Below, one piece after another: positions 52,931-53,808 of a DNA stretch of 64,000 nt. The translations under genes were made by a program, and so were the position numbers. The notes under the pieces were generated by a model. It searched no databases, was not told the DNA's origin, and saw only the letters and a program-made list of their open reading frames with translations. This stretch comes from Rhodopseudomonas pseudopalustris (GTDB taxonomy: Bacteria > Pseudomonadota > Alphaproteobacteria > Rhizobiales > Xanthobacteraceae). Position 1 is the stretch's first letter. The number at the start of each line of letters is the position of its first letter. Location of the stretch: NCBI RefSeq assembly GCF_900110435.1, contig NZ_FODT01000016.1, positions 1-64,000 on the forward strand. Reading direction: 5' to 3'.

Positions 52931-53587
52931 ATGGAAGTTCATGTCGTGCGCCGCGAGAACCGCGAAGCCTACGCGGATCTGATCGAACGTCAGTTTCGCA
53001 TCAGACACCAGATCTATGTCGTCGAGCGGAAATGGACCGAGCTCGACCGAGCGGACGGCAGGGAGATCGATCAGTTCGACACCGACGAGACGGTGTACCT
53101 GATCGGCATGCAGAACGGTGAGATCGTCGCCGGCATGCGGATGGTGCCGACCAGCTCGCCGACGCTGCTGAGCGACATCTTTCCTCAGCTGTCGCTGGAC
53201 CGTCCGGTCCGGCGGCCCGACGTCTACGAGCTGTCCCGGATCTATGTCGTTCCGAACAAGCGCGGCGAGCACGCCGGTCCGCGCGCCGAAGCGGTCATTC
53301 AGGCCGCCGCCATGGAATACGGCCTGTCGATCGGCCTGTCCGCTTTCACCATCGTGCTGGAGACGTGGTGGCTGCCGCGGCTGCTCGATCAGGGCTGGCG
53401 GGCGCGGCCGCTTGGACTGCCCCAAGACATCGACGGCATGTCGACCACCGCGGTGCTGGTCGACGTCGACGACGAGGCTTGGCTCGAAATCTGCGCCCGT
53501 CGATCAGTCCCCGGACCTGCACTGCATTGGCTGGGCCTCGAAAGCGTCAATCGGAATCCACTTCCCAACCCCATGGAGCTGGCATGA
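52931..53587 (+). CDS. rpaI: acyl/aryl-homoserine lactone synthase, LuxI family (RpaI/BjaI-like)
   Basis: 218 residues. The invariant LuxI-family residues are present: Arg25 and Trp35 ([12 protein letters not shown]), Asp47 and Asp50 (EIDQFD), Arg70 in GMRM, and the YELSRIYV segment. ATG 52931 has GGGGAGAGG upstream. Members of this clade use CoA-linked acids (p-coumaroyl-CoA for RpaI, isovaleryl-CoA for BjaI) rather than acyl-ACP, an inference from relatives. Its stop overlaps the next small gene by 4 bp (ATGA). The symbol rests on synteny and general similarity. Confidence 0.88.
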
Positions 53588-53808
53588 CCACTCAAGAAAA
53601 TACGAGCCTCGGCCAAACCGTTCCGCCCGGGACCAGCGGTCGTGCGAAATCGGTGTCGATCGAGACGCTGGCGACGACGATCAACCGCGCCATCGAGCAG
53701 GCCGAGGAGCTCGGCATCCCGTCGGCGGCACAATTGCTGATGATGGCGCGGCTGGAAGTCGACCTGACCGAGATCGCCCTTGAAACCAAATTGAAGAAGT
53801 CCGCTTGA
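53584..53808 (+). CDS. small protein translationally coupled to the LuxI-type synthase
   Basis: 74 residues. The first ATG (53584) overlaps the synthase stop as ATGA, so both genes are probably translated together. The N-terminal 22 residues are Thr/Ser/Gly-rich and probably disordered; the rest is predicted helical ([42 protein letters not shown]) and amphipathic. No signal peptide or membrane segment. I do not recognise a family. Its linkage suggests a role in quorum sensing, such as modulating synthase or regulator, but that is inference. Confidence 0.7.

Follow-up and report, generated by a model that had tools for sequence, protein, structure and literature searches.

The RpaI-type quorum-sensing locus of Rhodopseudomonas pseudopalustris contains a third gene, overlapping luxI, that probably encodes a quorum-induced adaptor binding the repressor PraR. 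As judged from sequence comparison and by analogy, the 74-residue protein looks like a distant relative of CinS from Rhizobium. The locus lies in a window of 64,000 nucleotides (contig NZ_FODT01000016.1, positions 1 to 64,000), the whole stretch of DNA that was analyzed, and its features are collected in Table 1. Little is known about which genes p-coumaroyl-HSL quorum sensing controls.

Table 1. Features of the luxRI locus in the window, with the second luxRI locus of the same genome.
Feature	Position	Strand	Remarks
GshB-like upstream neighbor	51059..52021	+	Next upstream gene of the small gene in three luxI-less relatives
LuxR-type regulator (RpaR position)	52104..52853	+	Pfam Autoind_bind 1.8e-31, GerE 5.5e-17
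Lux-box-like perfect palindrome CTGTCCGATCGGACAG	52855..52870		76 nt 5' of the luxI ATG
LuxI-type synthase, RpaI (4-coumaroyl-HSL synthase) type	52931..53587	+	Pfam PF00765 4.5e-17
GGAG Shine-Dalgarno-like site of the small gene	53575..53578	+	Inside the luxI 3' end; read from the sequence
Small gene, 74 aa	53584..53808	+	ATG overlaps the luxI stop by 4 nt
Conserved two-helix core, residues 29-67	53668..53784	+	Alignment A1 and AlphaFold2 helices
YifB/ComM-like downstream neighbor	53941..55479	+	Follows the small gene in 15/15 loci
Second luxRI locus (G000:C9)	L304 2592-4648		PraR paralogue, luxR, luxI, small gene

The genes are arranged in the order GshB-like gene, luxR, palindrome, luxI, small gene, and YifB-like gene, the two outermost being what we take to be GshB-like and YifB/ComM-like genes. 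The best PDB chain for the LuxI protein is 6wn0, a 4-coumaroyl-homoserine lactone synthase (E 8.1e-115), followed by 5w8a (E 7.1e-40), and since 6wn0 is the closest of the solved structures, the assignment to the RpaI type is right. The lux-box palindrome has no other match in the window at up to three mismatches, and it is found with at most one mismatch 5' of luxI in all 12 distinct luxI-linked loci of the genus. In R. palustris GJ-22, lux-box-like repeats have been reported at -76 and -35 of the rpaI ATG (PMC10305029). The interval separating the GshB-like gene from luxR also holds a near-perfect inverted repeat of 34 nt (positions 52028-52061), whose 17-nt arms are 94% complementary. A repeat of this type with perfect arms was not found at the corresponding place in eight other genomes of the genus; in one locus (L361) the corresponding stretch holds an unrelated repeat with 9-nt arms.

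Translation of the plus strand from 53584 to 53808 yields 74 residues and a stop. An earlier reading made from the sequence alone had described this frame as a third gene of a quorum-sensing locus whose ATG overlaps the LuxI-type stop as ATGA; both statements were confirmed, and a GGAG lies just upstream of the start. A search of 16 genomes of the genus found the small gene in 15 of them, with a single match per genome. The only genome without a match, G013, is a 92% complete assembly in about 800 contigs where the YifB query (run without a positive control) was also empty, so the absence there says little. The gene directly follows luxI in 12 of the 15 loci, and in these 12 distinct loci it always starts at -4 relative to the luxI stop; the other three have no luxI at that place.

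The sequence-only reading had also proposed a mostly helical protein with a short disordered N-terminus, and AlphaFold2 bears this out. It predicts helices at residues 26-43 and 46-73, which may be packed as a hairpin. The mean pLDDT is 97-98 for residues 31-60 and lies below 50 for the stretch 1-20. As that reading had stated, no family is recognized: the best Pfam match, HTH_Tnp_Tc3_1 (E 0.094), falls short of the cut-off, and NCBIfam and PHROGs gave no match up to E 1, the PHROGs search thus showing no sign of a phage family. A Foldseek search against the PDB returned nothing at E<=0.001, and a profile search against PDB sequences found nothing better than E 0.012; designed proteins made up many of its 13 matches up to E 1. 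Because the protein is helical and has no recognized catalytic or DNA-binding domain, the earlier guess of a protein-binding partner is a reasonable one. The known CinS and MmaP cases have 59-67 residues.

To find relatives, we gathered luxI loci by family and order searches and as direct stretches, taking only part of the LuxI matches. Starting from 14 of the 15 copies in the genus (alignment A1; profile s0), a profile was iterated on the ORFs downstream of luxI (s1 to s3). At E<=0.01 it settled on 37 ORFs out of 548 non-redundant ones, 12 of the 37 being copies from the genus. The control search against 2274 opposite-strand ORFs gave no match at E<=0.01, the best E being 0.11.

Widening the profile brings in CinS. 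A scan with a Rhizobium CinI yielded 58 loci, among them that of strain 3841, where cinI is followed by a 67-aa ORF with an overlap of 4 nt; CinS has been reported to have 67 residues (PMC3356288). The genus-only profile s0 did not list the CinS of 3841 even at E 10, and its E value falls as the profile widens, from 0.02 (s1) to 1.3e-5 (s2) and 3.5e-6 (s3; Z=548). The s3 value is the least circular test, and CinS was not among the 548 ORFs. A profile-profile comparison of A1 with A4, which contains CinS and luxI-linked relatives, gave E 1.1e-5 and a probability of 82%, the A4 rows having been selected because s3 found them. When compared with a set of members away from luxI, itself selected with a profile containing both the small protein and CinS, A1 scored E 4.7e-10 and CinS 9.5e-8. 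The direct comparisons were negative: hhalign of A1 with a CinS-only profile was not significant (probability 0.3%, E 0.21), and a search with that profile failed to list the 74-aa protein at E<=1. The two proteins are 23% identical in alignment A3. Since the genus-only and CinS-only comparisons fail and the widened profiles succeed, the link to CinS runs through intermediates, and for this reason we place the small protein in a wider family to which CinS also belongs, without calling the two orthologues. The likeness may be due to convergence, since short amphipathic proteins with two helices can come to look alike. As regards organization, the small protein shares with the product of the cinIS operon of 3841 its place directly after luxI, the 4-nt overlap, the two predicted helices (residues 3-34 and 37-66 in CinS, where they may likewise form a hairpin), and the lack of any Pfam or NCBIfam match, whereas the LuxI types are different.

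Among luxI loci, an ORF of this family was found by two profiles in 91 of 223 unique downstream regions. Loci were de-duplicated by their last 300 nt and those with less than 450 bp downstream were dropped. For the count with two profiles, L137 was replaced by L304, and L308 and L309 were left out; part of its positives had helped to build s3. The test with the second profile, described below, started from 227 unique loci out of 243, of which 223 were used. The 58 CinI-like loci are mostly close kin, and thus the counts are also given for luxI clusters formed at 60% identity: 11 of 67 clusters are positive and 56 have no positive ORF, so most of the luxI types sampled lack it. The second profile, built from members not adjoining luxI, recovered 82 of the 223 downstream regions at E<=0.01 and none of the 223 in each of two controls, and it is not independent, because its training rows were picked with profiles of A1 and of A2, an alignment holding both the small protein and CinS.

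The family is not confined to luxI. The A2 profile matched in 159 of 297 Hyphomicrobiales genomes at E<=0.05 and in 95-96 of them at E<=0.001 (hand count). Outside the order in the same class, 4 of about 285 genomes had a match at E<=0.001, as counted by hand among the matches listed, with the number of genomes deduced from the listing order. Linkage to luxI was checked for the 52 strongest matches in the 297 genomes and for four hand-picked weaker ones. Of the best 52, 39 had no LuxI match within 700 bp upstream, and 13 lay within 700 bp after one, all of these in the top 20 and several being A2 rows or near-copies of them. The sequence-only reading had asked whether homologues always follow RpaI/BjaI-type synthases and had held that homologues widely found away from luxI genes would refute its proposal; these 39 matches and the luxI-less clade described below go much of the way towards that refutation. 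An example of the core in members away from luxI is AYLLDMARLEA. The genome of the window has three A2-profile matches. Another Hyphomicrobiales genome (G330), in which LuxI has no match at E<=1e-8, contains eleven, the listed ones being open frames of 69-93 aa. In genus g25, which is in the same taxonomic family as the genome of the window, five loci (L028-L032) encode relatives of about 61 aa with the core LTTATLILRMARLEIDRAE and have no luxI within the stretch examined. On the evidence of these profile searches, the small protein belongs to a family of small two-helix proteins that has no name and occurs mainly in Hyphomicrobiales.

The three luxI-less loci of the genus (G002, G009, and G014) have the small gene between the GshB-like and YifB-like genes, without adjacent luxRI and without a lux box at up to three mismatches. 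These genomes cluster in a YifB tree with support 99/97, the root being uncertain, and the simplest reading is a single loss of luxRI in their ancestry; a search for luxRI remnants in their loci gave nothing convincing (best E 0.061). Among the LuxI matches listed at E<=1e-8, none comes from any part of the G009 genome, and G002 and G014 have one each elsewhere, followed by a family member (L116, L126). Purifying selection acts on the core: over 42 codons, comparisons between luxI-linked copies give a summed pN/pS of 0.21, and the three pairs of luxI-less copies give 0.10. A protein serving only RpaI or RpaR would not be expected to be kept without adjacent luxRI, and since these three genomes have neither a lux box nor luxRI beside the gene, quorum control is not essential to its function. 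A stretch of about 95 bp in the intergenic region upstream of the small gene matches between these genomes (L023 against L024 and L025, 68-70% identity), and it is perhaps the gene's own promoter.

The weak likeness to CinS, together with the known partner of CinS, would point to a PraR-type repressor as the target rather than to the synthase, the delivery of CoA substrate, or the LuxR protein. CinS has been reported to bind PraR and to take it off promoters (PMC4149787; PMC5977203). A second case is MmaP of Methylobacterium fujisawaense, described as a 59-aa protein encoded directly after mmaI and co-transcribed with it, which binds PraR and suppresses swarming (PMC10790750). MmaP resembles the small protein in that its gene lies immediately downstream of luxI, a likeness by description and not by sequence; when we looked for a candidate in three genomes of the genus of G364, taken as Methylobacterium, two luxI were found and no clear MmaP. 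The inactivation of the XRE-type repressor SinR by SinI, a small anti-repressor protein of Bacillus subtilis, offers a model of how such a protein works (PMC4149787).

A search with PraR itself found an orthologue in all 16 genomes of the genus, which is weak evidence, since PraR is reported to be highly conserved among alphaproteobacteria (PMC4149787). In the genome of the window, the order is lnt-praR-trmB, lnt and trmB being named by eye. The use of metK as a beacon for PraR failed in the genus because metK has other neighbors there. Before metK in the genome of the window, a methyltransferase-like gene lies in two frames (L192 72-1429, G000:C14) and is one 450-aa ORF in G008 (L217); this split is a frameshift or an assembly error. 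The second luxRI locus of the genome encodes a 61-aa family member whose GTG start lies directly at the luxI stop, and a PraR paralogue (PraR2, 52% identical over 108 residues) that is divergent from luxR. PraR-like genes are also near luxI in five other luxI loci examined. Counted per locus, the small gene is not enriched where a PraR-like gene stands beside luxI (4/6 vs 87/217, p=0.23), whereas per luxI cluster there is a modest association (3/4 vs 8/63, p=0.012). In L205 and L291 a PraR-like gene stands by luxI, and the small ORFs fail E<=0.1.

The mechanism that we propose would begin with p-coumaroyl-HSL and the LuxR protein activating the lux box. The luxI gene and the small gene would share a transcript and their translation would be coupled; the small protein would then accumulate with cell density. 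Its two-helix product may then bind an XRE-type repressor of the PraR family, presumably the PraR conserved on the chromosome and perhaps the paralogue as well, and might sequester or remodel it, changing its DNA binding. Information on cell density would in this way reach the genes under PraR control and leave the synthase unaffected.

The main rival to a PraR adaptor, which we regard as rather unlikely, would be an adaptor of the same family whose partner is another XRE repressor, a sigma or anti-sigma factor, or a response regulator. The family can be multi-copy, as in the genome of the window and in G330, and most of its best 52 matches do not adjoin luxI, so the partners may have diversified; moreover, a praR cinS double mutant of 3841 is reported to indicate that CinS has a further target besides PraR (PMC4149787). 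Nevertheless, both luxI-linked proteins so far characterized, CinS and MmaP, bind PraR according to the reports (PMC4149787, PMC10790750), and a PraR paralogue is found together with a family member in the second luxRI locus.

The targets suggested by the sequence-only reading, i.e., the synthase, the delivery of its CoA substrate, or the LuxR protein, are not supported, and we consider such tuning improbable. In its favor are the overlapping start in every luxI-linked locus of the genus and the precedent of mlr5639 in Mesorhizobium japonicum, also a third gene directly downstream of luxI and reported to be needed for normal signal synthesis, but one that encodes a protein of the crotonase superfamily (PMC10470506). 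Against them stand the three genomes in which the gene has no luxRI beside it and is nevertheless kept by purifying selection, G009 having no LuxI match at all among those listed, and the occurrence of family members behind very different luxI types as well as away from luxI. The same retention, with relatives common away from luxI, led us to reject a gene dedicated to LuxI, and a TraM-type anti-activator of LuxR was rejected as Pfam gave no TraM match up to E 1. Finally, a spurious or decaying ORF carried along without function by its position behind luxI is hardly credible and was rejected: the N-terminal third of the protein is indeed poorly conserved in A1, but the pN/pS of the core shows purifying selection, also where the adjacent luxI is gone, and the gene is present in nearly all genomes of the genus.

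The kind of protein proposed here, a PraR adaptor behind luxI, is already known from CinS and MmaP, and a family-wide reading is the more novel part. Methylobacterium tslA/tslB are a possible parallel, for which our literature search found nothing. In the open-access literature, which leaves out most subscription papers, no report of such a protein from an RpaI locus came up. It is conceivable, and we put it forward only tentatively, that CinS and the RpaI-coupled protein, perhaps with MmaP, form one unrecognized, mainly Hyphomicrobiales superfamily of two-helix anti-repressors, with several members in some genomes, that compete for PraR-type repressors and have been acquired repeatedly by luxI operons.

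If the third gene encodes a PraR adaptor, part of the p-coumaroyl-HSL output may run via a repressor that does not depend on AHL, and the small gene could be the real cause of phenotypes seen in polar luxI mutants, as reported for polar cinI mutants whose phenotypes were really due to cinS (PMC3356288). If the superfamily reading is true, PraR would be a hub that reads many inputs via interchangeable two-helix proteins, quorum sensing being one of them, and the luxI-less clade would represent an adaptor released from quorum control. A shared family would unite small proteins that have been described separately and would offer a way into studying many two-helix proteins of the order that lack annotation.
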